Below, in pieces: positions 21,176 to 39,038 of a DNA stretch of 44,264 bases; within the stretch, counting starts at the first letter, position 1; each line of letters begins with the position of its first letter. The notes below the pieces were generated by a model. That model had not been told where the DNA came from, searched no databases, and was given only the letters and a program-made list of their open reading frames with translations. The position numbers were made by a program, and so were the translations under genes. Source of the DNA: a virus; IMG/VR virus record IMGVR_UViG_3300042868_002664, positions 1 through 44,264 of that record; one strand, written 5' to 3'.

Positions 21176-21180
21176 GTTAT

Positions 21181-21747: not shown

Positions 21748-22590
21748 TTAATCAAATGTAGTTATAAATTCTTTTTTTTCAAATTTAATTCTATCTAAAG
21801 TTTTATCAAATATAGTTTTATAATTATCATTATAATACGGGCCGATATTACTTTTTATAGTTTCATCAAATAATACTGCATTATAGTAATTACCATATTG
21901 GCCGAAATGGCCATCATCAATTACATTTAAAGTTTCTTCTCTAATTGAAAAATTTTTTGGTAATTTAGAAAAAAAATTATCATACGAAAATTGATTTTTT
22001 ATTGAAAAATTCCATTTTTGTTTTTCAGTAATTTCATCTAAATCGGAAAATGGTGTCCACATTATTGGTTTATATTTTGAATGTAATTCCACAATATATT
22101 CCATAAATGATAATAAATTTTTATTTAAATAACCATTATCAAAAAAACTAATTTCTCTATTTACTGTTTGATATTTAAATAATTCTTTTGGTAAGTTTTG
22201 TAACGATGATGTATTGGAATGAATAAACATACAATCCAAATTATCGGTTATCCAATTAAATCTGCTTGGGTGTGTCCAATTTATTATAATTCTATCACCT
22301 TCATTATAATCAAAATCTTTTATTTTTGAAAATTGATATATTATATCCTCAATAGAACACCCACCTTTACCAAAATTATATACATCATATCCCCATTCTC
22401 GTAACCAATCATCGAACCATTTAGCGGTATAATTTATATTTACTTCATTTAATTTTAATAAATACTGGCCGATTGGATTTGCCATAATCCATTGCATTCT
22501 ATTTTCATAAATTTTTGATTCTTCTATTGCATCATATTTTTCTTTAAATAAATTACATGTAAATGAGTCTCCTAATAAAAATATTTTCAT
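21748..22590 (-). CDS. SGNH-like protein 3
   Basis: 280 aa. It begins MKIFLLGDSFTCNLFKEK with Ser9 in a GDSF block. NFGKGGCSIEDIIYQF near 92-107 is block II/III-like, and DDGHFGQYGNYYNAVLFDETI gives a C-terminal Asp-His pair near 225. The middle contains IINWTHPSRFNW, close in style to other phage GDSFT proteins. Its start overlaps the preceding stop as ATGA, so it is the last gene of the long leftward run. A carbohydrate esterase or acetyltransferase role is an inference from the family and from neighbours. Confidence 0.78.
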   Translation of the reverse strand: MKIFLLGDSFTCNLFKEKYDAIEESKIYENRMQWIMANPIGQYLLKLNEVNINYTAKWFDDWLREWGYDVYNFGKGGCSIEDIIYQFSKIKDFDYNEGDRIIINWTHPSRFNWITDNLDCMFIHSNTSSLQNLPKELFKYQTVNREISFFDNGYLNKNLLSFMEYIVELHSKYKPIMWTPFSDLDEITEKQKWNFSIKNQFSYDNFFSKLPKNFSIREETLNVIDDGHFGQYGNYYNAVLFDETIKSNIGPYYNDNYKTIFDKTLDRIKFEKKEFITTFD

Positions 22591-23660
22591 AATAAATTGT
22601 ATTTTTTAAGGTATTTATTATTTAATTGTTTAAATGAATTGGTAACAAATTCAATATCTTCTAATTTATTTTTTAATAATATTTCCGAACTTACATCGGA
22701 AATCAATTCATTATCGGACTGAGGTATGTTTAATGTATTCATAAATTTAATGTATTCAAAATGAAATATATCTGTAAATAAAATTATATTTTCTAAATTT
22801 TCTGCAGTATCGGATAAGATATTATTATCAATGAACCATTTTTTTATTATATTTTTATAAAATATATAATAAGAATGTGAACTTGGATGTGGGTCTGTTA
22901 TCAAATTATATCTTCTGCCAATAGATAAATTATCTCTAGCATATTCACTTATACCACCAAATTTACCCGATGGGGTGTTGTATGTTTTTAATCCAGAAAT
23001 TAATTTAGAATTTAAATTTGGTTTTTTTCCAGCACAATACGTTTCCATCTCATCATTTGCACTATTATATTCATAAAAAGTTACTATTTTTTTTAAATCA
23101 TCTATTTTATGAGTTATATTGTATTCAACAAAATCTTCTACAAATAAATTTGCCCAACCAAAAAATATTTTATTAATTACACTATTTTCTTTACAAAAAT
23201 CATTTATATTTTCAATATTAGAGATATGTTTTAAAAATATATTTTTTATAGATTCGTAATCATTTAGATTTTCTACACCATAGTCATATGGATAATTATT
23301 TACATCTATATCCATATTATTCATTTTTACAGAAGGCCTTAATAATGCAGATAATTGTATTATTGCATATATTTTATCATTTGGATAATTGGATTTGATA
23401 TCAATAATTTTTTGTTTTAATTTATCAAAAATAACATGATTCCCATATGAACCTCTTGCAATTGTATAAATTTTAACATCATCTATTTTATTTTGATTAA
23501 TTAAGTCTAATGCAAGATATTTATGAAGTTTTATTGTATTGGGAGCTCTTAATGTTTCATATGAAATAGTATTCTTTAATAATTCAACATTAAAATTATC
23601 TTCAAAAACACCTTCATCTGAAAATGAACAACCCGCAAATATTATATGATTTTTTTGCAT
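22587..23660 (-). CDS. SGNH-like protein 4 (divergent)
   Basis: 357 aa. HIIFAGCSFSDEGVFEDNF (5-23) is a GCSF variant of the GDSL block with Ser13. ARGSYGNHVIFDKL near 68-81 fits block II/III, and TDPHPSSHSYYIFYKNII supplies a DxH motif near 256-260. A further about 80 residues after it form a helical tail not present in the shorter relatives. The start overlaps the stop of the glycosyltransferase-like gene by 19 bases. Function is inferred from the shared pattern only; sequence identity to the other five looks low. Confidence 0.72.
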   Translation of the reverse strand: MQKNHIIFAGCSFSDEGVFEDNFNVELLKNTISYETLRAPNTIKLHKYLALDLINQNKIDDVKIYTIARGSYGNHVIFDKLKQKIIDIKSNYPNDKIYAIIQLSALLRPSVKMNNMDIDVNNYPYDYGVENLNDYESIKNIFLKHISNIENINDFCKENSVINKIFFGWANLFVEDFVEYNITHKIDDLKKIVTFYEYNSANDEMETYCAGKKPNLNSKLISGLKTYNTPSGKFGGISEYARDNLSIGRRYNLITDPHPSSHSYYIFYKNIIKKWFIDNNILSDTAENLENIILFTDIFHFEYIKFMNTLNIPQSDNELISDVSSEILLKNKLEDIEFVTNSFKQLNNKYLKKYNLL

Positions 23661-24787
23661 ATTGATATTGGGTTTGCCTCATCTTCACGTTGTAAAAATT
23701 CTTTTATTTTATCTTTATGGTTGGTAAAATATTGTATTAAAATTTTAGAATTGTTTTCATATTCATAGATATATTTAAAATAGATATCATGTAATGTTTC
23801 TATCTTTTCAATAGATTGTTGAGTGATGTGGCCATATCCTTCTCTGCAACTATTATCATCCGTTATATCGTAAAACCCATATAATGGAGATGTGAATCTC
23901 ATACCGATTGATTCAAATACGTGTTTTAAATTTTTTGGGCCAAAGACTATAAATGGTAAACACGAAACGATTGGTTTTATTAATTTTTCGGTTATTGGAC
24001 AACTATTTTTTAAATTTTTTATATCTCTAAAAAAATAAGATTCGGCCACTATTTCAAAATAACACAAAAATTGTGGTAAATATGTATGTTTTAAATTTAT
24101 AGTTTTTTCAGAATATCTGTCAAATGAATGTGGTATAATTCCCTCATTGTCTTTAAAAAATGAATCCAAATTGTGTTTTTCTGCAGAATAATATACCAAA
24201 CTATCATTGAAAGACCACATTCCATTTTTTAAATTATCGGTTGCTTTTAATATATTAAAAATATCAATTCTAGTTGGGCTAACGTGGTTTGAATAAAAAG
24301 AGTATTTATAAGGTTTTATTAAATCATAATATTCTCTATTCATATTTTCTAAAAAGGTTCTAGCATTAAGATAGTCGTTTAATATTAACCAATCTACTTG
24401 TGTATACAATGATAGTGGTAAAAATATTTTATATTCGTTTTTTGTAGAATACATATCAAAATTGGCATAATAACATTTTTTACCTATATCTTTTGAGAAA
24501 TTAATAAATTCTGTTTCGTCATTTACTATGATTTCATTTAAAATAAATAAAGCTTTATTAAAATCACCATATAATTTAATATATTCATTTATAGCACTTT
24601 TTAATTTATCGGAATTGTGTATTTTTTCAAATTCAAATCCAAACGAATTTACTACAAATATAATACAAGTATTATTTTCACTTTGAAAACCAAAACCAGT
24701 TGGCATATAATATCCATGTGCATAATTAGTTTCAGGTGTTAAAACTTCTATAATATCACCATCATCTTTATATAATATTGCTTTCAT
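23642..24787 (-). CDS. Glycosyltransferase-like protein, family copy 3
   Basis: 381 aa. The C-terminal part has YSNHVSPTRIDIFNIL, YFEIVAESYFF, ITEKLIKPIVSCLPFIVFGP and LKHVFESIGMRF, the same order of blocks (AES, TEK..KP, PF..G, L..G) as the proteins at 15266 and 16518. I therefore place it in the same probable GT-B glycosyltransferase family. The N-terminal third (ILYKDDGDIIEVLTPET) is not recognisable. It overlaps both neighbours, an SGNH-like gene on each side, by about 20 bases. That glycosyltransferase/SGNH pairing recurs on the plus strand at 16518-19426. Confidence 0.65.
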   Translation of the reverse strand: MKAILYKDDGDIIEVLTPETNYAHGYYMPTGFGFQSENNTCIIFVVNSFGFEFEKIHNSDKLKSAINEYIKLYGDFNKALFILNEIIVNDETEFINFSKDIGKKCYYANFDMYSTKNEYKIFLPLSLYTQVDWLILNDYLNARTFLENMNREYYDLIKPYKYSFYSNHVSPTRIDIFNILKATDNLKNGMWSFNDSLVYYSAEKHNLDSFFKDNEGIIPHSFDRYSEKTINLKHTYLPQFLCYFEIVAESYFFRDIKNLKNSCPITEKLIKPIVSCLPFIVFGPKNLKHVFESIGMRFTSPLYGFYDITDDNSCREGYGHITQQSIEKIETLHDIYFKYIYEYENNSKILIQYFTNHKDKIKEFLQREDEANPISICKKII

Positions 24788-25538
24788 ATTTTATTAAATG
24801 TTTTACAATAATTTCCGATATCTTTTTATGTCCTGAAATACCTGGATGAGTATCTTCTATTCCATTATTTAATTCATCACCTAAACTTAATTTTTCATTT
24901 TTACACATATCTTGTATGAAACTATATTCTTTACAATTGAATGTGGAATCCGATAATTTTATTATATTTCTATCCGTTACTATTCCCTTATATATGTTGT
25001 ATTTATTTATAATATCATATGGTTGTAGTAAATAAATATTATTTGTATGTTGTTTTATATACGAAATTAATGACATCAAATTTACATATTCCTTTTTACC
25101 AAATTCTTCAAAATTACAAAAATTATAATAGGAATTTATTACATCTTTTTTTATATCATGCCATTCGGCATTATCTTCTGTTAAATCATTTGGATTTGAT
25201 AATAAACCACCCGTTATATTAAAATATCTACCTATTTTATTTGAATATATCTCATCTCTAAATCCATTTGGTATTTCCAATATAAAAGTTGTATTAGATA
25301 TATTATTGGTCATTATATATTCCCAACACATTCTTACAATTCTATTAATAGAGCCACCATATCTAGAGTCATCTTGTAATTTTAAATTAAAATGATTTGC
25401 AACTAAAGTTGGATATGAATAATTACGCCCTTTACCAGGTATATTACAAGTTTTTATTAAACCATTTACATCCAATGTGTCACCATCCGTCCAACTACAA
25501 CCATTTATATATAAATTTTTTATTTGAACATGTCCCAT
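24768..25538 (-). CDS. SGNH-like protein 5
   Basis: 256 aa. LYINGCSWTDGDTLDV (9-24) is the GCSW version of block I with Ser15, matching GCSWTAG of the protein at 18653. RYGGSINRIVRMCWEY near 59-74 fits block II/III, and DTHPGISGHKKISEIIVKHL near the end gives a DxHPxxxGH block V, the clearest in this set. The first ATG (MGHVQIK) overlaps the stop of the upstream SGNH-like gene by 19 bases; no later ATG is suitable. Hydrolase or acyl-transfer activity is plausible; the substrate is unknown. Confidence 0.8.
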   Translation of the reverse strand: MGHVQIKNLYINGCSWTDGDTLDVNGLIKTCNIPGKGRNYSYPTLVANHFNLKLQDDSRYGGSINRIVRMCWEYIMTNNISNTTFILEIPNGFRDEIYSNKIGRYFNITGGLLSNPNDLTEDNAEWHDIKKDVINSYYNFCNFEEFGKKEYVNLMSLISYIKQHTNNIYLLQPYDIINKYNIYKGIVTDRNIIKLSDSTFNCKEYSFIQDMCKNEKLSLGDELNNGIEDTHPGISGHKKISEIIVKHLIKYESNII

Positions 25539-26545
25539 TTTAAAATTATTTCTTCTGTAAATTTTTTATAGTTTGTATGTCCAACATGTCCCCAAGAACC
25601 CGCATTTCCTTCTATAATATTACGATGTACTTCTGATTGAGAACCATATTGCCAATATTCTTGATATAATGGATTAAAATCTTCATCTGTACTTGGTATT
25701 TGATTTCTAAGAGCCCATTCTAATACACCCCCATTTTTGTGTAATCCCTCTTCTTCAAAAAACCAACAATATTTTTTCCAATCGATTTGTTTATATAAAT
25801 TAGCTCCCCAAGGAAATCTATTTATAATATCATCTTCGGTTTCATTCCAAGTATTATGTATTTTTCTATCAACAAACATACCTTGTATCATTTCATGCCC
25901 GTTTTTATAATCGGATGGTAACATCCCATAATGATATGCAGAAGAAAATGGATTATGCATAAAAAAACATTTTAATTTTATATTATGTAATTCACAAAAT
26001 GTTATAACATAATCAAAATAATCTAACCATTCTATAAATCGTTCTTCATCATTGTATAAAGTTTCTAAATATAATTGATTGAATTTAAACATCTTTGGGT
26101 TTAAATCAACAAAAGAAGATTTATCCATATCAGGACATGCCATTGTTAACCAATATCCTTTTTCACCATTATAAGATTTATCATTTATAAAATCATTTGC
26201 ATAATTTTCATGTGTATCAATTGGTGCTTTGTGTTTTATTTCATTTGATACAAAATAACTTTTTCTATGGAAATTAGACCATTGAATTATTATTGATATT
26301 TCCGAACCATCTACCCCACTATTAAGTAATTGTTTTGCTTTATATAAAGCAGAACGTGCAATGGTTAAATTACCATTTCCTGGACTTCCCATATTAAAAA
26401 CTTCTAATTCCGGTCTTAATGTTTTAATCCAATGGGTATGATACCAAAATTGTAAGTGGTCTTTTAAAAAATCAGATTCACCTCTTTGTAGATTTACTCT
26501 TTCGTGTGATGTAAAAGAACATCCACTTGTTATTAAATATTTCAT
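25520..26545 (-). CDS. SGNH-like protein 6
   Basis: 341 aa from ATG at 26543-26545 (MKYLITSGCSFTSHERVN), preferred because it gives a TAATATG junction with the radical SAM gene; an ATG 18 bases upstream would overlap it. GCSFT (8-12) is block I with Ser10, FNMGSPGNGNLTIARS near 50-65 is a good block II/III with Gly and Asn, and WGHVGHTNYKKFTEEIILKW near the C-terminus holds a possible block V His. No Asp precedes that His at the usual spacing. The gene is the first of four SGNH-like genes that end the leftward run directly after five radical SAM genes. Confidence 0.78.
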   Translation of the reverse strand: MKYLITSGCSFTSHERVNLQRGESDFLKDHLQFWYHTHWIKTLRPELEVFNMGSPGNGNLTIARSALYKAKQLLNSGVDGSEISIIIQWSNFHRKSYFVSNEIKHKAPIDTHENYANDFINDKSYNGEKGYWLTMACPDMDKSSFVDLNPKMFKFNQLYLETLYNDEERFIEWLDYFDYVITFCELHNIKLKCFFMHNPFSSAYHYGMLPSDYKNGHEMIQGMFVDRKIHNTWNETEDDIINRFPWGANLYKQIDWKKYCWFFEEEGLHKNGGVLEWALRNQIPSTDEDFNPLYQEYWQYGSQSEVHRNIIEGNAGSWGHVGHTNYKKFTEEIILKWDMFK

Positions 26546-26546
26546 A

Positions 26547-27737
26547 TTATTTACATTTTCCACAAATGGTTTTACACATTTTTAGTGGTGTTTTATTTAC
26601 TAAATCATCATATACAAATTCATGTAATACCCCACTATTAAATACATTTTTTAATGTTGAATTATTTAAAGAAAATTTATCAAATCCTATTTCTAGCATT
26701 TTATTTAAAATTTCTTTTTGGTAAGGAGATTCTTCACCACTATGATGGTGTATTGAATTTGAAATGTTTGGTGGTATCATACAACATGGCATTAACAACT
26801 TATCATGTGTTATGTATACATTAAATTCACTATCTAATAAATTGGATGGGTTTGTAAAATTTTTAGAATAACACGTTTGATTTGTTATAGAATTAAATTT
26901 ATTAATATCTTTTTCTGAAAATGTTACATCGTTTTTTTTGTAGGGATTTTTTTTGAAACTTCTTTTTGGTTTTATTAAAAAGTTACTTAGTTCCAATGGA
27001 GATTCTGACAAATCTATTTCGGATAATTCTGCCTTTAATTTATCCAATTTATTAAAATCCCAAAATGTTTCTAAATATTTTTCTAATTCAGGTTTTTTTA
27101 TTTCAGTTAAAAAATGAGTTGATTGGCCTTGTATATTATATACTTCCGTTTTGATTCCGGTTGTATATGGTTTTCTTAAAAATAATTTACCAAATCCAAT
27201 GGATTGTATAAAATCAATCATTGGTATAATTTGGTTAGTGGTTTCGGCCCACATTATAAATTGTATTTCAAGTTGATGTGGAGAATTTACCTTTGTTACA
27301 AATGAATTTAAATTTTGAAGTATCTTATCCCACTTAACATTTACTCTATATAATTCATTAGATTCTCCTAACCCATCTAATCCAAATATCATATGAACAC
27401 CAAGTTCTGCCAATTTGGCAAAATCTTTTGCATCACCAATTCCACCATTTGTGTTTATATGAATTGGTAAATTTGGATTATTTTCTCTAAAATATTTAAC
27501 TATTTTTACAACATCGGGATTTCCCATGGTGTCTCCAAAATTACCACATAGAATTAAATTTTTTAAATTTTTAATTATTTCCAAATCAATGTGATTTTTT
27601 ACATCATCCATTGACCAATAAGTTTGTGAAAATTCACTATAATGGCCATCTCTTCTACGCATACACACCGAACACCCTGCATTGCATATAGATGATATTT
27701 CAAAATCTAAACAAGTTATTAAATTACTCAATTCCAT
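26547..27737 (-). CDS. Radical SAM protein 1
   Basis: 396 aa. ISSICNAGCSVCMRRR holds the CxxxCxxC motif (Cys18, Cys22, Cys25) that binds the [4Fe-4S] cluster and S-adenosylmethionine to make a 5'-deoxyadenosyl radical. HINTNGG near 94 and FGLDGLGE near 118 are typical barrel strands. Further Cys appear near residue 288 (NQTCYSK), in LMPCCMIPPN (near 315) and in a C-terminal KMCKTICGKCK, so a C-terminal SPASM-like auxiliary cluster is likely. The family modifies peptides or small molecules. It differs from the four other radical SAM proteins nearby, whose extra Cys are N-terminal. The start overlaps the preceding stop (TAATG). Confidence 0.92.
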   Translation of the reverse strand: MELSNLITCLDFEISSICNAGCSVCMRRRDGHYSEFSQTYWSMDDVKNHIDLEIIKNLKNLILCGNFGDTMGNPDVVKIVKYFRENNPNLPIHINTNGGIGDAKDFAKLAELGVHMIFGLDGLGESNELYRVNVKWDKILQNLNSFVTKVNSPHQLEIQFIMWAETTNQIIPMIDFIQSIGFGKLFLRKPYTTGIKTEVYNIQGQSTHFLTEIKKPELEKYLETFWDFNKLDKLKAELSEIDLSESPLELSNFLIKPKRSFKKNPYKKNDVTFSEKDINKFNSITNQTCYSKNFTNPSNLLDSEFNVYITHDKLLMPCCMIPPNISNSIHHHSGEESPYQKEILNKMLEIGFDKFSLNNSTLKNVFNSGVLHEFVYDDLVNKTPLKMCKTICGKCK

Positions 27738-28942
27738 TAATTAAAATATTTTTTCCATTCTGGTAAATAATCACCTATAAATACATTTCTTTGTAAATCT
27801 AATAATTTCATAAAATTTATAAATTTATTAAATCCATCTTCAATTGGTTCACTATATAATTCGGCTTTTAATCTTTCTTTTTCATAATTGTCTAAATGTT
27901 CAATATTATTTAATATTTCTTCTTTCATTTCGTTTGGAATAATAGATACATGATGAAATGATGGATGATGTACATAATTATGAGCTACAATTAAATTGTG
28001 TTTATTTGTAAATTCTTTAAATTTATCAATATTTGATACATTTAAACAACTAACCGTTTGACAAACTTCAATTCTAAATATATTTTTGTATTTTATAATT
28101 TTTAAAAAATTTGCATAAATATTTTCCCACTTAGAACCGGTTCGGATATAATCATTTCTTTCATCTAAATCATCTATCGATAGGTGTAATCTAACATTTT
28201 TAAATTGTTTCCAAATGTTTATAAAATCATCTGGTACATTAGTCATATTTATTGAATAATGTATGTTTATATTTTTAGAGCGGCCGGAATCAATTAATTT
28301 TTGTAAAAAATATGCATGTTCTCTGATTAATGTTGGTTCTCCACCATTAATCCATATTTCTTCTAATAATGAACATCTTTCATATAACTCATCATAGAAT
28401 TTTGTACTTCTAAACCACTCCGTTCTAATATCACATTTAAAATAATTCTTTTCAAATTCGGTTCCTTTGAATACTTTTACATCTTCATTCCATCTATTAC
28501 TACTAAATGGATTACAAGTAACACATTTTAAATTACATACAGTACCTAAACGTAATTCTATGTATCTGTAATCTAAATCTTTTAACGAACCATCCGAATT
28601 TGTATTTGCATAAGCATGGTCTATTAAATGTTTAAATTTAAGATTGCTCTCCATTCGTTTACTATACACATTACTTTTTTCGTGAAAATAACAAGTCTTA
28701 CATTCGGAAGGAAATTCACCTGCAATCATTTTTTTTCTGATAGTGTTAAAGTTTTCAGAATTTGTAATATCAAATAAAGAATCTTTATCCAAAAATAAAT
28801 TAAATCCATCTTTCTTTGCAGTACTCATATCATTTGTCATATCGGTAATACAACAAGGTGTCGATGTTCCAATTGGGTGTGTTGCTAAGTGTATGAATGG
28901 TAGTGTACAAAATGGCTTACCATCAAATTCTGGGTTATTCAT
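27737..28942 (-). CDS. Radical SAM protein 2, N-terminal twitch type
   Basis: 401 aa. The radical SAM motif is Cys136, Cys140, Cys143 (GTVCNLKCVTCNPFSS), followed by EEIWINGGEPTLI near 195, the usual GGEP strand. Before the barrel is a Cys-rich part with FCTLPFIHL (Cys12), STPCCITD (Cys30, Cys31) and ECKTCYF (Cys81, Cys84). This matches what I know as twitch-domain radical SAM proteins, common in environmental phages and without a known reaction. The auxiliary Cys could bind a second Fe-S cluster. It lies 2 bases after the next radical SAM gene. Confidence 0.9.
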   Translation of the reverse strand: MNNPEFDGKPFCTLPFIHLATHPIGTSTPCCITDMTNDMSTAKKDGFNLFLDKDSLFDITNSENFNTIRKKMIAGEFPSECKTCYFHEKSNVYSKRMESNLKFKHLIDHAYANTNSDGSLKDLDYRYIELRLGTVCNLKCVTCNPFSSNRWNEDVKVFKGTEFEKNYFKCDIRTEWFRSTKFYDELYERCSLLEEIWINGGEPTLIREHAYFLQKLIDSGRSKNINIHYSINMTNVPDDFINIWKQFKNVRLHLSIDDLDERNDYIRTGSKWENIYANFLKIIKYKNIFRIEVCQTVSCLNVSNIDKFKEFTNKHNLIVAHNYVHHPSFHHVSIIPNEMKEEILNNIEHLDNYEKERLKAELYSEPIEDGFNKFINFMKLLDLQRNVFIGDYLPEWKKYFN

Positions 28943-28944
28943 AA

Positions 28945-30282
28945 TTAAATTTTTATACTATTCCACCATTCTAATAATGGTTTATAATTAGAAAATATCT
29001 CTTCTATTTTTCCTTCGTTTCCTCTAAAAGCATCAATCATTTTTAATCTAGCCTTTCCTCTTTTCAATCCTTGTTTCCAATCGGGGTATTGTTCTTCAAA
29101 TGTTTGTTTCTTTTTAATATCTTCAAAACAAGTTACATAATTTTGAATTTTAGGATTATATTTTGATTTTCGTTTTGCATATTCAATGATATCATCTAAT
29201 ATTGGTTCAAGTATGTGTCTAGGAATCATCATAGGTGACATTACAATACTACTATCAAATGAGAATGTAGTTTTAATCAATGTGTGTACATCTAATTTAG
29301 AGGTTATGTCAATCATTTCTTTCATTGAAAATAATCCAGGAGAGGTTACGGTCAAATCAAACGATATACCATACTCACCAAATTGTTTATTTAAAAATAA
29401 TCCATTTTGAAAATTTTCAAACCATTGGTTCCATTTAATGCCATGTCTAACATATTCAACCACATTACCAATACCATCAATACTTGCACATATTTGAACA
29501 CCCTTAAAGTGTGGAAGTAAATCATATAAATTAGTTCCTTTGTAAGCAACTCTACTTAAATTTGAATTATATCTAACTATAACATCTTTAGATTGGCCGG
29601 TTTCTACCAATTGTTTCATAATATCCCAATGGATATCCCACATCAATGGTTCTCCACCTACCCAATAAATTTCTTCAATTCTTTTTTCATTAACCGCATC
29701 CCATAGTTCTTTTTCCGCTACTTCTTTCTGAAATTTTTCTATGATTGGTTTAAATTGTTTACTGGCCCATGCATCCGTACCATTATCATAATTACCCATC
29801 ATTCTATTTTCAGCTTCCCAAGAAGATGATAATTGGTCTCCACACATTCTACATTTAAAATTACAAAGATTACTAATCCTATAATCAAATGATATTGGTT
29901 TCATTTCGGTATAACCATCATCATTTGTTTTTTCAAAAGCTTCTTCGATTTTATGTGGAAATAATGTTTTTGTAAAATAATCTCTATAAATGTGTATATT
30001 TAATAGTTTATTATTACAGACATTACATTGTGGAATTTCTTCACCTGCCATTAATTTTTTACGAATATCCATCATATATGGACTATTCCAATGTTCATCT
30101 AAACTAATTGGTGTATATTCGGAGTTTGTATCGGCTTTTTGGGCATCAATATATTGAGTTGCCCAACTGGCTTTTTCTCTACTTGCACAACACATTCTTC
30201 TTTCACTTTGTGGTGAAAGGTATGTATGTGCAAAAGGAGCCATACAAAATGTTTTATTGCCTTCGGATGGTTTAATTTTCAT
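28945..30282 (-). CDS. Radical SAM protein 3, N-terminal twitch type
   Basis: 445 aa from ATG at 30280-30282 (MKIKPSEGNKTFCMAPF), which gives a TAATATG junction with the upstream SDR; a start 48 bases earlier would overlap that gene. The radical SAM Cys are 140, 144 and 147 (SNLCNFKCRMCGDQ), and IYWVGGEPLMWD is the GGEP strand. N-terminal Cys are in FCMAPF (13), RMCCAS (31, 32) and QCNVCNN (86, 89), the same arrangement as radical SAM protein 2. The two are probably diverged copies. Substrate unknown. Confidence 0.92.
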   Translation of the reverse strand: MKIKPSEGNKTFCMAPFAHTYLSPQSERRMCCASREKASWATQYIDAQKADTNSEYTPISLDEHWNSPYMMDIRKKLMAGEEIPQCNVCNNKLLNIHIYRDYFTKTLFPHKIEEAFEKTNDDGYTEMKPISFDYRISNLCNFKCRMCGDQLSSSWEAENRMMGNYDNGTDAWASKQFKPIIEKFQKEVAEKELWDAVNEKRIEEIYWVGGEPLMWDIHWDIMKQLVETGQSKDVIVRYNSNLSRVAYKGTNLYDLLPHFKGVQICASIDGIGNVVEYVRHGIKWNQWFENFQNGLFLNKQFGEYGISFDLTVTSPGLFSMKEMIDITSKLDVHTLIKTTFSFDSSIVMSPMMIPRHILEPILDDIIEYAKRKSKYNPKIQNYVTCFEDIKKKQTFEEQYPDWKQGLKRGKARLKMIDAFRGNEGKIEEIFSNYKPLLEWWNSIKI

Positions 30283-30283
30283 A

Positions 30284-30859
30284 TTAGAATTTATCTCCAC
30301 CTCTGATACTATACATTTCACCGTTTTCATAATTTTCTAAATTATGAACAATATCATACATTAATTTACTATGATATTCATATTCTTCATCATTTCTCAT
30401 AGGTCCTGGATTTAAACTAAACATTTTAATATGTTTATATTTTTCTTGACAAGATAATCTAAATATGTGGTTTGTTAATAATTCTTTACCAAAAACATAT
30501 GGATACATTTCACCAACTCTATCTTTTTTTATAATTAATCCGGTTGATAATGCTATAACAAATTTTAAATTTGGTAAATATTGTTGTATTAATTGTGTCG
30601 GTGCTATAATATTAAAATCAAATAATTTTTTAAATAATTGAATTTGATTTGTATCAAACCAATCATTTGGTTCCGGACTACCCGTATTACCATTTAATAT
30701 GATACCATCCACTTCACTTACTAAAGAAGCGTAATTTTTAATACTTTCTGGATTTAACAAATCTAAAGTATCTTTTCCTGGTGTATGATATAAATCAGGA
30801 TTTTGTTGTTTTAATTTTGTAGCAAATCTACTATTGCCCCCTGTTACTAAAATTTTCAT
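30284..30859 (-). CDS. Short-chain dehydrogenase/reductase-like protein
   Basis: 191 aa, short for the family. MKILVTGGNSRFATKL gives a Rossmann start with a TGGxxR/F variant of the Gly-rich motif. VIALSTGLI (Ser105) and YPYVFGKELL (Tyr121, Lys125) give the catalytic Ser-Tyr-Lys set at good spacing, and FSLNPGPM follows as the usual Pro-Gly strand. It is thus likely an active NAD(P)-dependent oxidoreductase. It is not one of the extended sugar SDRs of the rightward operon. It sits between radical SAM protein 3 and the 2OG oxygenase, so it may oxidise or reduce the same product. Confidence 0.85.
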   Translation of the reverse strand: MKILVTGGNSRFATKLKQQNPDLYHTPGKDTLDLLNPESIKNYASLVSEVDGIILNGNTGSPEPNDWFDTNQIQLFKKLFDFNIIAPTQLIQQYLPNLKFVIALSTGLIIKKDRVGEMYPYVFGKELLTNHIFRLSCQEKYKHIKMFSLNPGPMRNDEEYEYHSKLMYDIVHNLENYENGEMYSIRGGDKF

Positions 30860-30864
30860 TTTTT

Positions 30865-31464
30865 TTAATTTATATAAAAGTATAACGAAACTCTATCGAA
30901 CCCATCGGGTACAGGTATCGTCATACCATGTCGTATTGTATTTGTATTTTTAAATAAATACCCGGTATTTTGAATATATGGTAGTGTTAAAAATGGAAAG
31001 TTATGGTTTTTGGAATCACTATTTGCATATGCAAATGCCGTACCTAAGTGGTTGTGGTTTACTCCGGTTACATATAATTGCATAGATGTATCAATTTTTG
31101 GATTGTCTACATGCATACCAATGAAATAATCCGCCGTATCCCACCATACTCTAAAACTACACGATGTATAATTTTCATCCATAATTTTATTAATATAACT
31201 TAATAATTCTGATTCTTTAAGATTGGTATTTATATCTCTAATTAATTTAGATGCATCAACTTTTAAAACTTTTCTAGAACGATTTTCTTGTTTAGTTACG
31301 TTTTCCCAATTTTCTGGATTCTTCATTGCATTTAATATTTCCAATTGTAATTTATTAAAAGTATTATCATCAAATAAATTTTTAATTAAACATAATTTAA
31401 TATCTTTATATTGAATTTTTACAATATTTTCTTCTAAATTATCATTAAAAAAAATAGTATCCAT
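30865..31464 (-). CDS. 2-oxoglutarate/Fe(II) oxygenase-like protein
   Basis: 199 aa. GMHVDNP gives the iron ligands His118 and Asp120, RHGMTIPV the distal His179, and DRVSLYFYIN a likely 2-oxoglutarate-binding Arg191. This HxD...H...R order over about 75 residues is the signature of the prolyl-4-hydroxylase/2OG-Fe(II) fold, and the length is normal. It would hydroxylate a protein side chain or a small molecule using O2. Many T4-like phages carry such genes near structural genes. Here it sits among radical SAM genes, which suggests combined oxidative and radical modification of one target. Confidence 0.85.
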   Translation of the reverse strand: MDTIFFNDNLEENIVKIQYKDIKLCLIKNLFDDNTFNKLQLEILNAMKNPENWENVTKQENRSRKVLKVDASKLIRDINTNLKESELLSYINKIMDENYTSCSFRVWWDTADYFIGMHVDNPKIDTSMQLYVTGVNHNHLGTAFAYANSDSKNHNFPFLTLPYIQNTGYLFKNTNTIRHGMTIPVPDGFDRVSLYFYIN

Positions 31465-31469
31465 ATTAT

Positions 31470-33038
31470 TTAATTATTTTTTATATAATCTAAAACATCA
31501 TCTTGAATATCTGGTTCAACATAATCTTGTGCACCTGGGTTTGCCCATTGTGGATTTAATACCCAACCTTCTTTTTTAGCAGTTTCCATAACTTCATCAA
31601 CGTATCTATTTGATTTAGCGTCATCACCATCTACCACACCTTTCAGTGGTCTAATGTTGGTTTCAGGAATACTATCCCACCAATCTTTTAACATAGGAAA
31701 TGTTTCTACAAAGTTTTTATTTCTTCTGATATCATATTGAGAATAGAATGATTTAAAATCTCTTTCTCTTGTTTGTAAAGAAGATGTGTGATTGTGTCCT
31801 GTTTCTATTTCTCTTAAATATACAACAAGTCTTTCCATACTTTCTTTTTCCCAAGCAATAAAACCATTTTTTTCATCATCCCAATTCTTATTAATCCAAT
31901 TTTCAATAGCCGTTGCTCTTTCTAATCTAACTTCTTTAGGAAGTGTTACCAATGATTGAAAAGATGGAAAACGAAGAATATTAAACGAACAAACAGGTGA
32001 TTGTGATTTATGTTTTATTTTTAATTTTAACATTTCATCCATAAATTCTGGTAATGTAAACAAACATAATGCATTTATAGTCATCATACAATTTACAGTA
32101 GTTACTTTACCTTCGGTTAATATTCTATCAACATTATGTAACCAACTTTTAAAAACTATACCATCTCTAATATACTCAGCGTGTGAATCCATAGCTTCAC
32201 ATGATGTATATAAATGGAATGTTTTAAAATTATGTGTGGCTTTTAATAATTGTTCAAATAATTCCTGTTTTTGTCCTAGGTTTGAGTTCATTGCAAACTC
32301 AGTTTCACATTCAGGATGATTTTCCCACCATTTCATCAACTTCCAGAAGTCTTGTGACATAGTTGGTTCACCACCAGTTACTCTTAATTCTCTCAAAGTA
32401 TGTTGTAATTCTGCCTCCCACCATTTCCAAAATGCTTCAATATATGGATTACCTTCATTTTTTCTACCATATGGCATTGAGTGGCCACCATCATGTTGAA
32501 ATGCACCTGCACCATCACTAACTAAATTTTGATACGGGCCGTTTTTCTTAATGTCATTTTGCCAACTTGTAGAGAATGAAGCATTACAATATGAACATGC
32601 AAAATTACAATTCGGGTCAAACGCAATTTCTAAAGTTTTTAAATCAACATCCTTTTCCCAACCATACATAGCTCTACATTGTTCCAATTCTTCATCGGTA
32701 TAAATTACAGATTTAAAAACTCTATCTGAAACTCTATCAGGACCCAATCCTTCTATTTTCCAACAATAATCACATTCTTTTGGTTTTATACCCTCAAGCA
32801 TTTGTTTTCTAATCAACTTTTTATATTGAGTATTATGAATTGCTTTATAATTCATAGCGACTTCGTTTAAAGGTATTTTGTGTGCTGGTGGGTGATGACA
32901 ACTGGCAGTTGTTCCATTCCCTAACCAAATTGTCGCGTTAAACCATTTAGCACCACAAAATGATGGTGATATGGAATTTATAGCTCTATCTCTATATTCT
33001 TGATATGTTTCATCAAGTTTTTTTGCAATTATTGCCAT
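31470..33038 (-). CDS. Radical SAM protein 4, N-terminal CHHP type
   Basis: 522 aa, the longest of the five. The CxxxCxxC is Cys144, Cys148, Cys151 (DPNCNFACSYCNASF), and LRVTGGEPTMSQDFW follows. The N-terminus carries FCGAKW (Cys28), SCHHPPAHKIP (Cys47 with two His) and ECDYCW (Cys89, Cys92), separated by LHNT-type and RKxMLEGIxP stretches. The same signature is in radical SAM protein 5, so these two form a subfamily distinct from 2 and 3. FDPN-type substrate strands and a long C-terminal region (about 400-522) are unique to it. Function unknown. Confidence 0.92.
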   Translation of the reverse strand: MAIIAKKLDETYQEYRDRAINSISPSFCGAKWFNATIWLGNGTTASCHHPPAHKIPLNEVAMNYKAIHNTQYKKLIRKQMLEGIKPKECDYCWKIEGLGPDRVSDRVFKSVIYTDEELEQCRAMYGWEKDVDLKTLEIAFDPNCNFACSYCNASFSTSWQNDIKKNGPYQNLVSDGAGAFQHDGGHSMPYGRKNEGNPYIEAFWKWWEAELQHTLRELRVTGGEPTMSQDFWKLMKWWENHPECETEFAMNSNLGQKQELFEQLLKATHNFKTFHLYTSCEAMDSHAEYIRDGIVFKSWLHNVDRILTEGKVTTVNCMMTINALCLFTLPEFMDEMLKLKIKHKSQSPVCSFNILRFPSFQSLVTLPKEVRLERATAIENWINKNWDDEKNGFIAWEKESMERLVVYLREIETGHNHTSSLQTRERDFKSFYSQYDIRRNKNFVETFPMLKDWWDSIPETNIRPLKGVVDGDDAKSNRYVDEVMETAKKEGWVLNPQWANPGAQDYVEPDIQDDVLDYIKNN

Positions 33039-33046
33039 ATTATTAT

Positions 33047-33703
33047 TTATATTATTTTATGTAAAAAGTTACAATTTTCAGATATATCATATATTTTGTA
33101 ATCGGTATGTTTTTTAAAATCATACAACCCAACAATAGTATCATCTAAAATTAAATTATTCTTTATATTATATATTTCAAAAATTGATTTATATGACTTA
33201 GATATCATTAAAAAATCTATGTCATATTCACAATAGTTTAAATTAAATGCATTTGTTGGAAAGTTTCCTGAACCAAATATTATGTGAGGTTCGTGTCCTA
33301 TACTAAGTGATTCATCATTTTCTAATTTATATTCTATTGCAATAGTATCATTAACTAATATTTCTAATATTTTTTTAGTCTTATCAAATCTGAATGTTAG
33401 TAAATTAAATTCGTATCCGATTTCTGTTTCTGAAAATAAATATTTCCATTCGGTTTCACCATTTTTGTTTAGATTTAAAATCAACATAAGATTGTTATTT
33501 TCTTTTTCAATATCCAATCCCATATAATTTGGTAACTTTGCAAATATAGTTCTTTTATCGTTTGATTTTGTTAAAATTTTAACATACATAGATAATGTAA
33601 AATCGGTATCCCCTTCAAATGTTTTTCCTATCTCACCGGTATTTATATCATACGAAACCATACTTGGCCATAATAACCAAGGTTCACCATTTTTAATTAC
33701 CAT
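33047..33703 (-). CDS. LamG/concanavalin-like domain protein
   Basis: 218 aa. The protein alternates in beta strands. FTLSMYVKILTKSNDKRTIFAK, then LLTFRFDKTKKILEILVN and later YDIDFLMISKSYKSIFEIYN, follow the LamG order seen inside the two GT7 proteins at 35065 and 36540 (a central strand pair, then a near-C-terminal strand and an EI..-type helix). LamG domains bind glycans or proteins. No enzyme motif is seen. It overlaps radical SAM protein 5 by 11 bases and precedes radical SAM protein 4 by 8, so it is embedded between the two CHHP-type proteins and may present their substrate. Confidence 0.6.
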   Translation of the reverse strand: MVIKNGEPWLLWPSMVSYDINTGEIGKTFEGDTDFTLSMYVKILTKSNDKRTIFAKLPNYMGLDIEKENNNLMLILNLNKNGETEWKYLFSETEIGYEFNLLTFRFDKTKKILEILVNDTIAIEYKLENDESLSIGHEPHIIFGSGNFPTNAFNLNYCEYDIDFLMISKSYKSIFEIYNIKNNLILDDTIVGLYDFKKHTDYKIYDISENCNFLHKII

Positions 33704-35084
33704 ATTTAATTTTTTTATAGAATTCTTCTAATTCTGGAAAGGTTTTTAGAAAATCAGTACCACGTCTCTTATCATGTTCATCTACAAATTTTACAAAATT
33801 ATTTCTTTCAACTAATAATTCTTCTTCTTGTGTAGGTGATATTGACCAGTCGTATATTCTTTTTATTTTTTGAGTTTCTACTTCCGTCATTCCCATATGT
33901 ATATTATCAAATATAGGTACTCCTAAAAACAATGCATGTTTTGCATTTCCTAAAATTAACTCCTTATGTTCTTCAAATAATAATTTTACGCTTTGATGCT
34001 TTGGAAATCTTAAATAGGATGTATCTAATAAAATCGGATGTTGCCAATATCTTTCTGAGTTTTGATGTTCTCTTTTTATATCGTATATATCTTTTATTAA
34101 AGTATTATATCCAAAAGGACTCATCAAATTATATGTAGACATTACCGTTATTGTCAACTTAGGTAATTTATATAATAATTTGTTTACATTATTTAAAAAT
34201 CTACTATATTCAAATCCATGTCTAATATATTCAGCTTGTTTACCAAATGTGTCTGATGATGTAAATATTATTATTTCTTTTACTCTATTTTCCGAAATAA
34301 TTTTATCTAATTTTTCAATTAGTTTATCAACTAAATCATCCGTTACTCCCAAATTTGAATTGATTGCAAATTTTAATTCTCTATTAGGATTTGGTTGTTC
34401 AATTATATAATCTAAAACTTTCCAAGTATCTTTAGATAACAAAGGTTCACCTCCGGTAATTCTAAATGTATTTAAATCTCTATATAATTCTGGCCACCAC
34501 TTCCAAAATGCATCTACATATGGATTGTATTCGCTTTGTAATATTGGTAATTTATTTTTGTTAACAAGTTCATCATAACTATTAAATTCACCAGTTGTTG
34601 GATATCCTCCAAATTGTTTTACTTCCTGTAACCATTGTGAGGAATATTCAGGTCCACAATATGAACATTTAAAATTACAAGTATTTGAAAAACTAACTTC
34701 AACATATCTTGGATTAAAATCGTCTCTCCAATTAGATGATGCAATTTCTTCAAAATGTGGGGCCGACCAAGGCTCAGTAGATTTGTAAGTTCTATCTGAG
34801 TATGAATTTGAATTATCTTCTACATTCCAACAATAATCACACTCGGTTGGTCGTATTCCTTCCAACATCTCCTTTCTTTTAAACTTTTTATATTTTGTAT
34901 TATGTAAGGCCGACGGGTTTCGTTTTATCTCCTCTACTGGTATAAAATGTGGTGTTGGGTGGTGACAACTATGATTTAATCCGGTCTGTAAATGCATGGT
35001 AACTTGTGTCCATTTTGCAAGACAAAACCCACATCCAACCGAATTTAGTTTACTTAAAGTTTTATCAAATACTTTGTTGTTCAT
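33693..35084 (-). CDS. Radical SAM protein 5, N-terminal CHHP type
   Basis: 463 aa. The cluster motif is Cys136, Cys140, Cys143 (SNTCNFKCSYCGPEYSS), with FRITGGEPLLSKDTW after it. The N-terminus has FCLAKW (Cys21), SCHHPTPHFIPVEE (Cys40), LHNTKYKKFKRKEMLEGIRP and ECDYCW (Cys82, Cys85), closely parallel to radical SAM protein 4. The two probably arose by duplication and diverged, with the LamG gene now between them. The start overlaps the stop of the GT7-LamG gene by 20 bases. Confidence 0.92.
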   Translation of the reverse strand: MNNKVFDKTLSKLNSVGCGFCLAKWTQVTMHLQTGLNHSCHHPTPHFIPVEEIKRNPSALHNTKYKKFKRKEMLEGIRPTECDYCWNVEDNSNSYSDRTYKSTEPWSAPHFEEIASSNWRDDFNPRYVEVSFSNTCNFKCSYCGPEYSSQWLQEVKQFGGYPTTGEFNSYDELVNKNKLPILQSEYNPYVDAFWKWWPELYRDLNTFRITGGEPLLSKDTWKVLDYIIEQPNPNRELKFAINSNLGVTDDLVDKLIEKLDKIISENRVKEIIIFTSSDTFGKQAEYIRHGFEYSRFLNNVNKLLYKLPKLTITVMSTYNLMSPFGYNTLIKDIYDIKREHQNSERYWQHPILLDTSYLRFPKHQSVKLLFEEHKELILGNAKHALFLGVPIFDNIHMGMTEVETQKIKRIYDWSISPTQEEELLVERNNFVKFVDEHDKRRGTDFLKTFPELEEFYKKIKYGN

Positions 35085-36543
35085 TTAAAAGTTTTACATT
35101 TAACATAACCGCGGTATCTGTTATTTCGGTTGTGTCTATTTTTTCAAATTTAACAGAATTTATACCATCGGATTTATAATCTATTTTGTCTTGTTGCATT
35201 TGTAACACATATCTTCGTTCATTTCGTGCAGTAGTTACACCTTTTGCCCACTTATCAATTCCTCCTTCATTTATCAATCCCTCAGTTTGGTGTGGTAAAC
35301 AAAAAAATCTACCATCTTTTCTATGTGGTATGATTACATCTGGTATAGATATCTTTTCTTTTTTAAAATTTATATTATAAAAAGTTGCCTGATTATTGGA
35401 AATATTTTCAATAATTTTTTTATTTTCTAAATCTACATTTTCAAAATCATAATGTAATACCAAACCATTTGTAGAAAAAGTATTATGTAATTCTTTTATT
35501 TCATTTTGTTTTAAAGCTCGATTCCATAATTTTAAATCTGCAATTTGTCCTTTAAATAACAAATTTGGTTGACCTATTAATTGTGTAGATGTTCTACCTA
35601 ATAAAAATGGTTCACTTCCATATTTTTTTAATAAACCGGTTAACTGAATTGGTGATTCCGTTCCTGTACCATTTCTAGAACTACTTTCTCTACCATTTAA
35701 ATATAAATGCATTTTACCCTTTACAGTATCAACAACCATTGTAACCCAAGTCCATTCGTTTTCATATCTTTTAAACCATTGATATAATTGTTCTTTTTTT
35801 TCAGTCCATAACATTGCAGTATATGCTCTACTATTATTAAAAGATAGTCCCCAATCATATCCAGGTTTTCTAAATATAGGATATTCAACAAATCTACGTT
35901 CCGTATCACCTATTAACCAAATTGGAACAACTTCTAATTGTTGAAATGAGTTTACTAAAACCGATATACTATGAGAACCATTTAATATGTGTCCGTATCT
36001 ATTTGGAACTTTTGCAAAAGAATCTATTCCATTAAATTCTGCAATTTGTTTTTCTTTTACATAATTTAAAATTTTTCTGTTAACCATATCTTCTTTTACA
36101 CATCTCCAAAATAGGTCATCATCTTCCATACCCCAATCCCAATAATCATTTGAGTAACCATTAGTTTTTTCAACTTGTTCTTTTGAAAATACAACTGCTC
36201 CACCAAAGTATTGTTCATATTTTAAATTATAATCACTTTGAGATATACTAACGGCAATGTGTTGTGGATTATCGGTTGGAAATGAATAGTCACACGTATC
36301 ATCTTCTGGTACCATATCAATATCATGCCAAACAATATAATCACATCCGTCTTTAAAAGCTTCAATAGCTGCAATATTTTTCATTGCACCTCTATTAAAA
36401 AGTTTATCATCACATTGATGTGCAAAATATATTTTGTAATCAATTCCTTGTGATTCTAAATATTTAGATACTATTGGAATAAATTCTTTTAAATGTTGTT
36501 CTCTATTTCTGTATGGAACACATACTCCTAATTTGTGACTCAT
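35065..36543 (-). CDS. GT7-type galactosyltransferase with inserted LamG domain, copy 1
   Basis: 492 aa. Residues 1-165 follow the beta-1,4-galactosyltransferase (GT7) plan: VPYRNREQHL (9-18), FNRGAMKN (49-56), WHDIDMVP with Asp74/Asp76 as the DxD metal site, and WGMEDDDLFWR (137-147), the acceptor and catalytic loop. The C-terminal DGINSVKFEKIDTTEITDTA (from 459) equals the GT7 ending known from beta4GalT (DGLNSLTY...). Between them, about 170-400, lies a LamG-like beta domain with LFKGQIADLKLWNRAL and a helix. So a lectin-type domain is inserted inside the catalytic domain rather than added to an end. It probably acts on cytosolic nucleotide-sugars. It overlaps its tandem paralog by 4 bases (ATGA). 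Confidence 0.87.
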   Translation of the reverse strand: MSHKLGVCVPYRNREQHLKEFIPIVSKYLESQGIDYKIYFAHQCDDKLFNRGAMKNIAAIEAFKDGCDYIVWHDIDMVPEDDTCDYSFPTDNPQHIAVSISQSDYNLKYEQYFGGAVVFSKEQVEKTNGYSNDYWDWGMEDDDLFWRCVKEDMVNRKILNYVKEKQIAEFNGIDSFAKVPNRYGHILNGSHSISVLVNSFQQLEVVPIWLIGDTERRFVEYPIFRKPGYDWGLSFNNSRAYTAMLWTEKKEQLYQWFKRYENEWTWVTMVVDTVKGKMHLYLNGRESSSRNGTGTESPIQLTGLLKKYGSEPFLLGRTSTQLIGQPNLLFKGQIADLKLWNRALKQNEIKELHNTFSTNGLVLHYDFENVDLENKKIIENISNNQATFYNINFKKEKISIPDVIIPHRKDGRFFCLPHQTEGLINEGGIDKWAKGVTTARNERRYVLQMQQDKIDYKSDGINSVKFEKIDTTEITDTAVMLNVKLLNEQQSI

Positions 36544-37961
36544 ATTGATACTGTAATGTGTGTTTGATTTCCTACACTCGCTTTATTTAATTCTTTAAAT
36601 GTTAAAGTAGATAGTCCATCATGTTTTGTATTTTTGTGACCTGGTGTCACTTCATTTATATATTTTAATTGATTATATCTAGTTGTAATATTTTTCCAAG
36701 AACCATTTACGAATCCATTTTCTTCATGTGGAATTAACTTAAAAGTACAATCTCTTCTATGAGGAATATAAATTGGTTTTGTATCTTCTATTTGATATCC
36801 AACAATTTCACAATTCATTATTTTTCCATCATTTCGGTTACCACTTAAATCTATTAAATTATATGATTTTATAAATTTTGCATCATAATATAATTTTAAA
36901 CTATCTGCAGATTTATAATCACCAAAATCTTGTGTTAGGCCGAAAAATTTATTATTTGATATTTCTTTAATTTCTTTATCGTTTAATATGGTATTGTATA
37001 TTGCAACTGAACTAATTAAACCTTGGAAATATTTTTTATCACCGTCTCTCTTTGGGTCTCCTGCACCTAAATATAATTTAGTTTGTCTCCTATAATTATA
37101 CACATCATTTGATAAAAATTTTTTATCAATTAAATTACCATCTTGGTACATTTTAATTTCTTTTTTATCTGGATTGATTGTAGCTACAATTGTAGTTTTA
37201 TAATTTGGTTTTATATCAGAATTTATGTAATTAATATTTTCAAGTTCATCATATATTTCAAAATTATATCTTGAATATGAATTAAAGTTAATATTTAAAT
37301 CTAAACCAGGAATACTTAATACAGAAAAGGTATCATCATATGTTTCAGTATTACAATGTAATTCATCAGGATAAAATGATACAAATATACTATAACAATC
37401 AATTGGTTCTATTACATTTTTACACTCAACATAAGAATTATGGCCATTGAATTTTAAAGCTGCCGTATTAGTTGCAGGTTGAAATATTTCTTTCCTATCT
37501 AAACTTACATTAAATTCTTTACACCTGTGTAATAAATCATTATCTTCGTATCCCCATCCCCAATATTCATTTGAGTAACCATTGATAGCTTCAAATATTG
37601 AACTTGGAAATATTGTTACTCCGCCAAAGTATTCATCAAATAAAATTCTATTAAATCCATCTGTACCGGTTATAAAGTTAGAGGCTATATGTACAGGATA
37701 ATTACAATAAGAGTAATCTACTTCAATTGGTATCATATCCACATCATGAAATACGACATAATCACATCCTAATCTTTTAGAATATTGAAACCCTATATTT
37801 AATAATTTTCCTCTATTAAATGTTTTGGCATCATCTTGTTCAACTATTATCATTTCATAGTCTATATTTTTACTTTTTAAGAAGTTTAACATAGATTTTT
37901 TAAAAAGTAACAAATGGTCGGGTCTATCTCTATATGGTACTATTATACCTAACTTATGCAT
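36540..37961 (-). CDS. GT7-type galactosyltransferase with inserted LamG domain, copy 2
   Basis: 473 aa. GT7 elements are VPYRDRPDHLL (8-18), FNRGKLLNIGFQ (48-59), FHDVDMIP with Asp73/Asp75 as DxD, and WGWGYEDNDLLHR (134-146). The C-terminal DGLSTLTFKELNKASVGNQT (from 448) aligns with the end of beta4GalT. The LamG insertion, about 165-385, includes YFQGLISSVAIYNTIL and DKEIKEI. It has the same architecture as its neighbour but low identity, so the duplication is old. It is the first gene after the 58-aa gene in the leftward run; the two genes are separated by only 3 bases. Donor sugar and acceptor are unknown. Confidence 0.87.
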   Translation of the reverse strand: MHKLGIIVPYRDRPDHLLLFKKSMLNFLKSKNIDYEMIIVEQDDAKTFNRGKLLNIGFQYSKRLGCDYVVFHDVDMIPIEVDYSYCNYPVHIASNFITGTDGFNRILFDEYFGGVTIFPSSIFEAINGYSNEYWGWGYEDNDLLHRCKEFNVSLDRKEIFQPATNTAALKFNGHNSYVECKNVIEPIDCYSIFVSFYPDELHCNTETYDDTFSVLSIPGLDLNINFNSYSRYNFEIYDELENINYINSDIKPNYKTTIVATINPDKKEIKMYQDGNLIDKKFLSNDVYNYRRQTKLYLGAGDPKRDGDKKYFQGLISSVAIYNTILNDKEIKEISNNKFFGLTQDFGDYKSADSLKLYYDAKFIKSYNLIDLSGNRNDGKIMNCEIVGYQIEDTKPIYIPHRRDCTFKLIPHEENGFVNGSWKNITTRYNQLKYINEVTPGHKNTKHDGLSTLTFKELNKASVGNQTHITVSI

Positions 37962-38189: not shown

Positions 38190-39038
38190 TTATATTGATA
38201 TTATTTTTTTGAATAATTTATTCCATTGTTTATAATCAATTTCTTTACCAACATATTCAAACATATATTCCATATTAGTAACATCAATTTCAAAATTATT
38301 ACTTCTTAAAGATTGATACATTTTTAAATATTCGTCTGAAAATGAATAATCTTTTCTAATATCTGCAACTTGTTTAATTCTTTCCACACAAGTCGAATCC
38401 CACTTAAAGTGGTGTACCTGAACATTATATTCATCAACAGGTGCAATCAATGGATGATTCCAACCCTGCCATCTCCATGTAGTATGGCCATCTATTTTTG
38501 CGTAATGTTGGCCAGGTGTTATTTCTATATAACCCCTCATTATACAAATTTTATTAGGACACGCCCCACTCATTGGGTATCTAAAAAATCCTGCAACTGG
38601 AAATTGTTCAAATATATTTTCTTTCTTATTTATTTTAGGAAAATCTCCTGTTTGTCCTATTCTATCAATAAAACCACCTCTTACCAATTCCCAACCATTT
38701 CTTTCACAGGCTGATATAATTTCATTTAATGGTTTTGAATAAATGTGAAATTCATCATCATCGGAAACTATCCACCAATCATTAGGAAATAACATTTTAG
38801 TTTCATTATATAATTGAGTAACATATTCCCAATTAAATTTTTCTTTTGTTACTCTTTCTACAATTTTAGCTTTATCAAATTGTTTTGTTATTTTTAAAAC
38901 TTCATTATAAGTACTAGAACCTTCCCACTCATAAACTACTACATACATTTCGTCTACTAAATCTTTATAATGATTCAGCATATGCCATAAAGTTTCTACT
39001 CTGCTACCAGTAACTGTAACTAATCTTATTTTATTCAT
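38190..39038 (-). CDS. GT-A-like glycosyltransferase
   Basis: 282 aa. RLVTVTGSRVETLWHMLNHY begins like GT2-type family proteins, and WWIVSDDDEFHIY (residues about 87-99) gives an Asp-rich metal-binding site. GHTTWRWQGWNHP and VQVHHFKWDST are further conserved-looking stretches with His residues that may serve the acceptor site. It probably transfers a sugar from a nucleotide donor in the cytoplasm. The gene is 48 bases upstream of the 58-aa gene and 21 bases after the methyltransferase. Confidence 0.78.
   Translation of the reverse strand: MNKIRLVTVTGSRVETLWHMLNHYKDLVDEMYVVVYEWEGSSTYNEVLKITKQFDKAKIVERVTKEKFNWEYVTQLYNETKMLFPNDWWIVSDDDEFHIYSKPLNEIISACERNGWELVRGGFIDRIGQTGDFPKINKKENIFEQFPVAGFFRYPMSGACPNKICIMRGYIEITPGQHYAKIDGHTTWRWQGWNHPLIAPVDEYNVQVHHFKWDSTCVERIKQVADIRKDYSFSDEYLKMYQSLRSNNFEIDVTNMEYMFEYVGKEIDYKQWNKLFKKIISI

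Follow-up and report, generated by a model that had tools for sequence, protein, structure and literature searches.

A recurrent set of twitch-domain radical SAM genes in the carbohydrate island of a T4-like phage, with a possible role in sugar tailoring

Why should a phage carry five consecutive genes for radical S-adenosylmethionine (SAM) enzymes, and on what might their products act? The question is raised by the IMG/VR virus record IMGVR_UViG_3300042868_002664, a linear sequence of 44,264 bases (28.7% GC) that was analysed over its whole length and is hereafter termed the window. Its source is a T4-like phage, marine or freshwater. The products of the portal (2253-3995) and terminase (5248-6855) genes, which belong to a packaging block in the left part of the window, are closest to those of Flavobacterium phage immuto and Microcystis phage Mel-JY01 (46-52% identity). 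The five radical SAM genes lie at 26547-35084, all on the minus strand, in the middle of a 28-kb carbohydrate island (12466-40780) situated between the packaging genes and a fibre-like open reading frame (ORF). With confidence a little better than even, we favour the reading that their products serve as tailoring enzymes in a glycan pathway encoded by the phage and would oxidise or rearrange sugars in the manner of BtrN, the glycan perhaps being intended for the virion.

The original prediction, made from the DNA letters, had described five radical SAM genes in a run, and in this it holds good: all five ORFs are intact and tightly packed, with intergenic gaps of at most 8 bases. Each matches the Pfam Radical_SAM model (PF04055) with E-values from 4e-11 to 2e-5, three above the curated cut-off and two slightly under it, and the CxxxCxxC motif typical of radical SAM proteins is kept in all five as well as in 367 of 367 non-redundant viral relatives. 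The run had further been divided into three architectures; as judged from sequence comparison there are two. Four of the proteins, here named after the left coordinates of their genes, belong to one family, NCBIfam NF033640 (N_Twi_rSAM, twitch domain-containing radical SAM protein), whose model they match over nearly its full length with scores of 295-333 bits, the curated cut-off being 170: 27737 (27737..28942; 401 aa, type PCCa, 331 bits), 28945 (28945..30330; 461 aa, type PCCb, 314 bits), 31470 (31470..33038; 522 aa, CHHP type HH2, 295 bits) and 33693 (33693..35084; 463 aa, CHHP type HH1, 333 bits). The annotated start of 28945 at 30330 is probably 16 codons too early, as its closest relatives align from about residue 16-17, and the likely start is at 30282. 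The fifth protein, 26547 (26547..27737; 396 aa, Radical_SAM 4e-11), is of a different, C-terminal type and not a member of NF033640, reaching just 43 bits with a match confined to the radical SAM core. Direct reading confirms its predicted C-terminal auxiliary cysteines, six of SPASM type in the segments TC, PCC and MCKTICGKC. Its close relatives occur in six to seven viral loci, and more distant ones in three sequence clusters (51, 80 and 145).

An hhalign comparison of the PCC and CHHP profiles gives a full-length alignment (398 columns, E 1e-46), and the FC..PCC..C..C and CHHP..ECDYCW sets comprise the same four auxiliary cysteines, the difference being that an extra cysteine stands next to the second ligand in the former and a histidine in the latter. 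The two CHHP proteins of the window, 31470 and 33693, fall in separate clades. The four N-terminal cysteines are present in 98.6% of the 367 non-redundant viral sequences, and five of the 367 are of the C-terminal type (cluster 51), which would explain those without them; this near-invariance indicates that the auxiliary site is constrained nearly as much as the catalytic site. Further, a profile of the N-terminal region of 27737 finds the twitch at the C-terminus of BtrN (4m7t, E 2.5e-6), with additional matches to BlsE and to 7wzv, i.e., SpeY, a twitch dehydrogenase. BtrN itself is a radical SAM dehydrogenase of an aminocyclitol, and its auxiliary cluster, which has four cysteine ligands, is the proposed electron acceptor (PMC9012708). 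Thus, a domain with at least four conserved cysteines and a match to the BtrN twitch places the proteins with the twitch/SPASM group, albeit with the auxiliary domain N-terminal in four of the five and not the C-terminal extension by which PMC9012708 recognises that group. A second, putative iron-sulphur (Fe-S) site in each enzyme, as the original prediction had implied, is supported by this conservation and profile match. AlphaFold2 models 27737 and 31470 with predicted local distance difference test scores (pLDDT) of 93.2 and 87.2, respectively.

Do these genes represent a chance cluster? They do not, inasmuch as the same set recurs in the same order across dozens of non-redundant viral loci. 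Scanning viral contigs twice yielded 140 and 86 confirmed relatives, with 160 loci kept and some contigs present in both scans; 31470 has 140 viral relatives. Each of the 35 non-redundant loci that were seeded by 28945 and have sufficient context contains four or more radical SAM genes, with all three N-twitch subtypes represented, and among the CHHP-seeded loci, filtered likewise, at least two CHHP genes are present in 30 of 31 and all three subtypes in 18 of 31. The order is typically an upstream gene, a CHHP gene, a LamG-like gene, an SGNH-like gene or neither, a second CHHP gene, PCCb, and then PCCa once or more, the gene directly upstream of the first CHHP being of the family c3 in 33 loci and a family 7 glycosyltransferase (GT7)-LamG fusion in 13. 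Thirty large viral contigs hold 3-12 NF033640 genes each, and none of 14 control genomes has one above the cut-off. The search of phage genomes proposed as a check recovered the set in uncultured viruses, and no equivalent was found in the 50,697 phage records of INPHARED: there, 31470 and 33693 had no match, and 27737 and 28945 had weak ones only, nearly all in Vibrio phages. The 28945-type clade comprises 54 viral sequences (support 1.0) with no bacterial member in the sample; its apparent virus-only status is provisional because the bacterial sampling used CHHP patterns only. These patterns bear on another reading, namely auxiliary metabolic genes of host origin that enhance cofactor or Fe-S metabolism without forming a joint pathway, a view to which the treatment of phage radical SAM genes among Fe-S-related genes in PMC5332604 lends itself. 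The fixed order, the joint retention of the subtypes, the virus-only clades and the lack of any similarity, at the curated cut-offs, to cofactor pathways already known all speak against it, and we hold it to be highly improbable.

The genes around the set are largely concerned with carbohydrates. Two minus-strand genes beside it encode GT7 glycosyltransferases fused to LamG, at 35065..36543 (492 aa; Glyco_transf_7N 9e-21, 7C 2e-19, Laminin_G_3 5e-13) and 36540..37961 (473 aa; assigned by Pfam), the N-terminal part of the latter matching the animal enzymes beta-4-GalT7 and GalT1 in the PDB (E 1.8e-30). On the same strand are a family 2 glycosyltransferase (GT2)-like gene (38190..39038; Glyco_tranf_2_4 E 0.0013) and a Methyltransf_24 methyltransferase gene (39060..39821; E 3e-10), which neighbour each other in most close relatives too; in a mixed set of proteins (A11) that includes four homologues of 38190, four match Glyco_tranf_2_4, the best at 1.4e-6. 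Neither 36540 nor 38190 has a match in INPHARED. The plus strand carries a sugar-nucleotide block (12466..21726) with epimerases (12466, 19423 and the C-terminal half of 16518), a deoxythymidine diphosphate-sugar isomerase (13388), a split thiamine pyrophosphate (TPP) enzyme (14646 and 21181) and SGNH-like proteins (18653, 20402); Pfam recognises the sugar enzymes at E 5e-31 to 1e-43 and the TPP halves more weakly (6e-20, 3e-7). Among the 28945-seeded loci, 31 of 35 have a sugar-metabolism gene (carbamoyltransferase, uridine diphosphate (UDP)-sugar dehydrogenase, epimerase, DegT or others), and the genes added in relatives are carbamoyltransferases, UDP-sugar dehydrogenases, DegT aminotransferases and one sugar nucleotidyltransferase.

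Two features of the sugar-nucleotide block may be recorded in their own right. The TPP-dependent (transketolase/E1-like) enzyme is encoded in two halves 6 kb apart, at 14646-15281 and 21181-21726, both on the plus strand, and the 710-aa product of 16518-18650 joins a domain akin to the 15242 family to an NAD-dependent epimerase at its C-terminus. A search of the 15242-type family against the PDB returned nothing.

On its other flank the island is bounded by the fibre-like structural ORF (40777..44262, minus strand), which is open at the window end, repetitive and Gly/Thr/Ser-rich; it has weak PHROG matches without function, and its assignment as a fibre is a weak one. In many relatives fibre genes precede the cassette or tail sheath/tube genes mark its end, these labels, like many of the glycosyltransferase, fibre and SGNH labels in relatives, being assigned by inspection because no Pfam model matches the proteins. 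The set is thus in the structural region of the window, and both the gene order here and that of relatives place it in a host-recognition or glycan island. This location also weighs on the idea that the set serves to hypermodify bases in the phage DNA. DNA is a possible substrate of phage glycosyltransferases (cited in PMC12619734), but no gene of the thymidylate or deoxycytidine monophosphate hydroxymethylase types was seen in the window, which offers packaging, structural and sugar genes instead, and this is the least probable of the readings considered.

Could the enzymes act directly on a protein, be it the fibre, another virion protein or a peptide of the ribosomally synthesised and post-translationally modified (RiPP) kind? 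The fibre genes are close by, and the RiPP maturases SkfB, SuiB, CteB and EpeE are among the nearest solved folds. However, the gaps of at most 8 bases across 26547-35084 leave no room for a precursor, and among the clustered ORFs (those below 40 aa were not clustered) no small one tracks the radical SAM set; the commonest small-ORF clusters (c11, c12, c20 and c21) occur in 28-37 loci and are restricted to sub-lineages. The co-conserved small precursor gene that would mark a RiPP system was accordingly not found, and the original prediction of no short precursor was mostly right, apart from overlooking a conserved 58-aa ORF (37965-38141, minus strand) that is coiled-coil-like by eye and lies between the GT2-like and GT7-LamG genes in 28 loci. 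As a candidate RiPP precursor this ORF was rejected: many loci have the radical SAM set but not this ORF, and its conservation is even along the full length, unlike a leader with a variable core. As the surrounding genes are, moreover, sugar genes, we judge direct modification of a protein or peptide to be unlikely.

Bacterial relatives provide a further view of the genomic context. Loci from bacterial genome records that resemble binned phage contigs were set aside by eye. Bdellovibrionota genomes have 5-33 NF033640 matches each; in the sampled loci (L231-L240, genomes G031-G048) these are often densely clustered, G042 having about 13 in a 30-kb stretch. The neighbours in the N-twitch islands (n=104) include 10 GT2, 5 DegT, 4 GDSL and 3 epimerase genes. 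The genome-wide GT2 background is 245 matches in about 67 Mb from 18 genomes, i.e., about 3.6 per Mb or, assuming a gene density of one per kb, approximately 0.4% of genes. Taken together, the gene island, the bacterial relatives and the lack of a co-conserved small gene support a sugar and not a ribosomal peptide as the target, in agreement with the original prediction. A glycan on a phage structural protein would fit both of the targets it had named, namely a sugar and a structural protein.

Several further genes, all on the minus strand, are interleaved with or adjoin the set. The predicted short-chain dehydrogenase/reductase (SDR; 30284..30859, 191 aa) gives weak but consistent signals (adh_short E 0.045; NCBIfam SDR models E 0.001), with related proteins matching adh_short. 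For the predicted 2-oxoglutarate (2OG)-Fe(II) oxygenase (30865..31464, 199 aa), H118xD120, H179 and R191 can be read directly and there are two homologues, but the window copy has no Pfam match; other proteins at or near this position in relatives match 2OG-FeII_Oxy, and the assignment is plausible. The free-standing LamG-like protein encoded between 31470 and 33693 (33047..33703, 218 aa) is likewise without a Pfam match, its label coming from an hhalign match between its profile and that of the GT7-LamG proteins (94%, E 1e-7); its homologues occupy the same slot in 35 viral loci. Next to the set are five further ORFs (21748..26563) for which Pfam searches gave no matches: 21748, 22587, 24768 and 25520 are SGNH-like by motif, with GCSxT-type N-termini read directly and homology within phage islands, and 23642 is related to the 15242-type family. 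Within the packaging block, 8217-12269 is an ORF of 1350 aa with a nucleotidyltransferase-like N-terminus.

How might these components operate together? By analogy with BtrN, we infer oxidation or rearrangement of sugars as the chemistry of the N-twitch enzymes. Each would generate a 5'-deoxyadenosyl radical at the CxxxCxxC cluster and abstract a hydrogen from a sugar or nucleotide sugar, with the four-cysteine auxiliary cluster accepting an electron as proposed for BtrN; were that so, the usual reaction would be a two-electron oxidation (hydroxyl to ketone) or a rearrangement. The epimerases, SDR, 2OG-like oxygenase, methyltransferase and SGNH-like proteins could then act on the product, and the processed sugar would be attached by transferases, including those of the GT7-LamG type. 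In the least certain step, the sugar would be placed on a soluble protein synthesised in the infected cell, for which the adjacent tail fibre is the likeliest candidate. Proteins with at least four predicted transmembrane segments number 3 of 2658 in the viral loci and 63 of 677 in the bacterial ones, and the near absence of multi-spanning membrane proteins (flippase, polymerase or ligase) alongside the phage set would fit a soluble protein as acceptor. It is possible, and we put it forward tentatively, that the phage has a multi-enzyme radical SAM pathway with a permuted (N-terminal) twitch which places an unusual sugar on its own tail fibre, with the 28945-type subfamily being virus-only.

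The main rival, which we view as rather doubtful, retains the same sugar chemistry but directs the glycan to the host surface (lipopolysaccharide O-chain or capsule), thereby changing the receptor and excluding competing phages. PMC7029224 reads the glycosyltransferases of pelagimyophage host-recognition islands in this way, and these islands too have radical SAM cassettes; the bacterial relatives are likewise located in glycan-gene islands. Yet, with so few polytopic membrane proteins in the viral loci, export would be wholly host-dependent, and the set adjoins structural genes. As the phage may borrow host export, the virion appears to hold a modest lead over the host surface as acceptor.

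Certain observations weigh against the preferred reading of sugar tailoring with the virion as a potential destination. The nearest solved folds are mostly peptide-acting (SkfB, anSME, CteB, SuiB, EpeE), with DesII among the top matches of 31470 and AprD4 lower on the sugar side; all matches have template modelling scores below 0.4 on the query, which means that only the shared core was matched. A search of the accessible literature for a function of the N-terminal twitch or a substrate of NF033640 found none, nor any experiment on a member of the family. Phages generally have few transmembrane proteins, and the segments were counted by a crude hydropathy measure. The c3 family, upstream of the CHHP pair in fibre-type loci, has no Pfam or PDB match and is labelled glycosyltransferase by inspection. 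Finally, genes in bacterial loci more than 6.5 kb from a CHHP gene are as glycan-rich as near ones; hence the glycan link is to the whole region and not the adjacent gene, and the genome-wide GT2 density was taken as the control instead.

On the whole, a set that recurs in many related uncultured phages probably serves unusual sugars for the phage particle or the host surface. A compact, fixed-order phage set beside sugar and fibre genes narrows the substrate search for NF033640. If the proposal is true, abundant uncultured phages carry radical chemistry for glycans, with bearing on receptor choice, phage competition and glycan enzymology, and the set offers a tractable test of the role of N-terminal twitch enzymes.

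How, then, does the locus compare with known systems? NF033640, which four of the five proteins exceed by far at its cut-off, is a family model without assigned function; the window brings together several of its diverged subtypes, two with CHHP replacing PCC. BtrN, of butirosin biosynthesis, shares the radical SAM core and a four-cysteine twitch with matching profiles, but its twitch is C-terminal and that of the window proteins N-terminal, the match covers the twitch only, and any likeness in substrate class would be by analogy. The pelagimyophage host recognition cluster (PMC7029224) is similar as a large variable island of T4-like phages with fibres, sugar genes and radical SAM cassettes, for which that source proposes no function, at least in the part drawn on here; the terminase and portal of the window are nevertheless nearest to those of immuto and Mel-JY01 and not of pelagiphages. 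The uncultured T4-like genome TARA_ERS488813_N000010 likewise has many radical SAM genes, 12 in all, which PMC5332604 discusses under Fe-S metabolism and not as a conserved glycan-associated set. Phages with many radical SAM genes (PMC5332604) and cassettes in host-recognition islands (PMC7029224) were already known, without function; what is new here is that the genes are subtypes of one N-twitch family, kept together in a conserved order and associated with sugar genes in both phages and bacteria.

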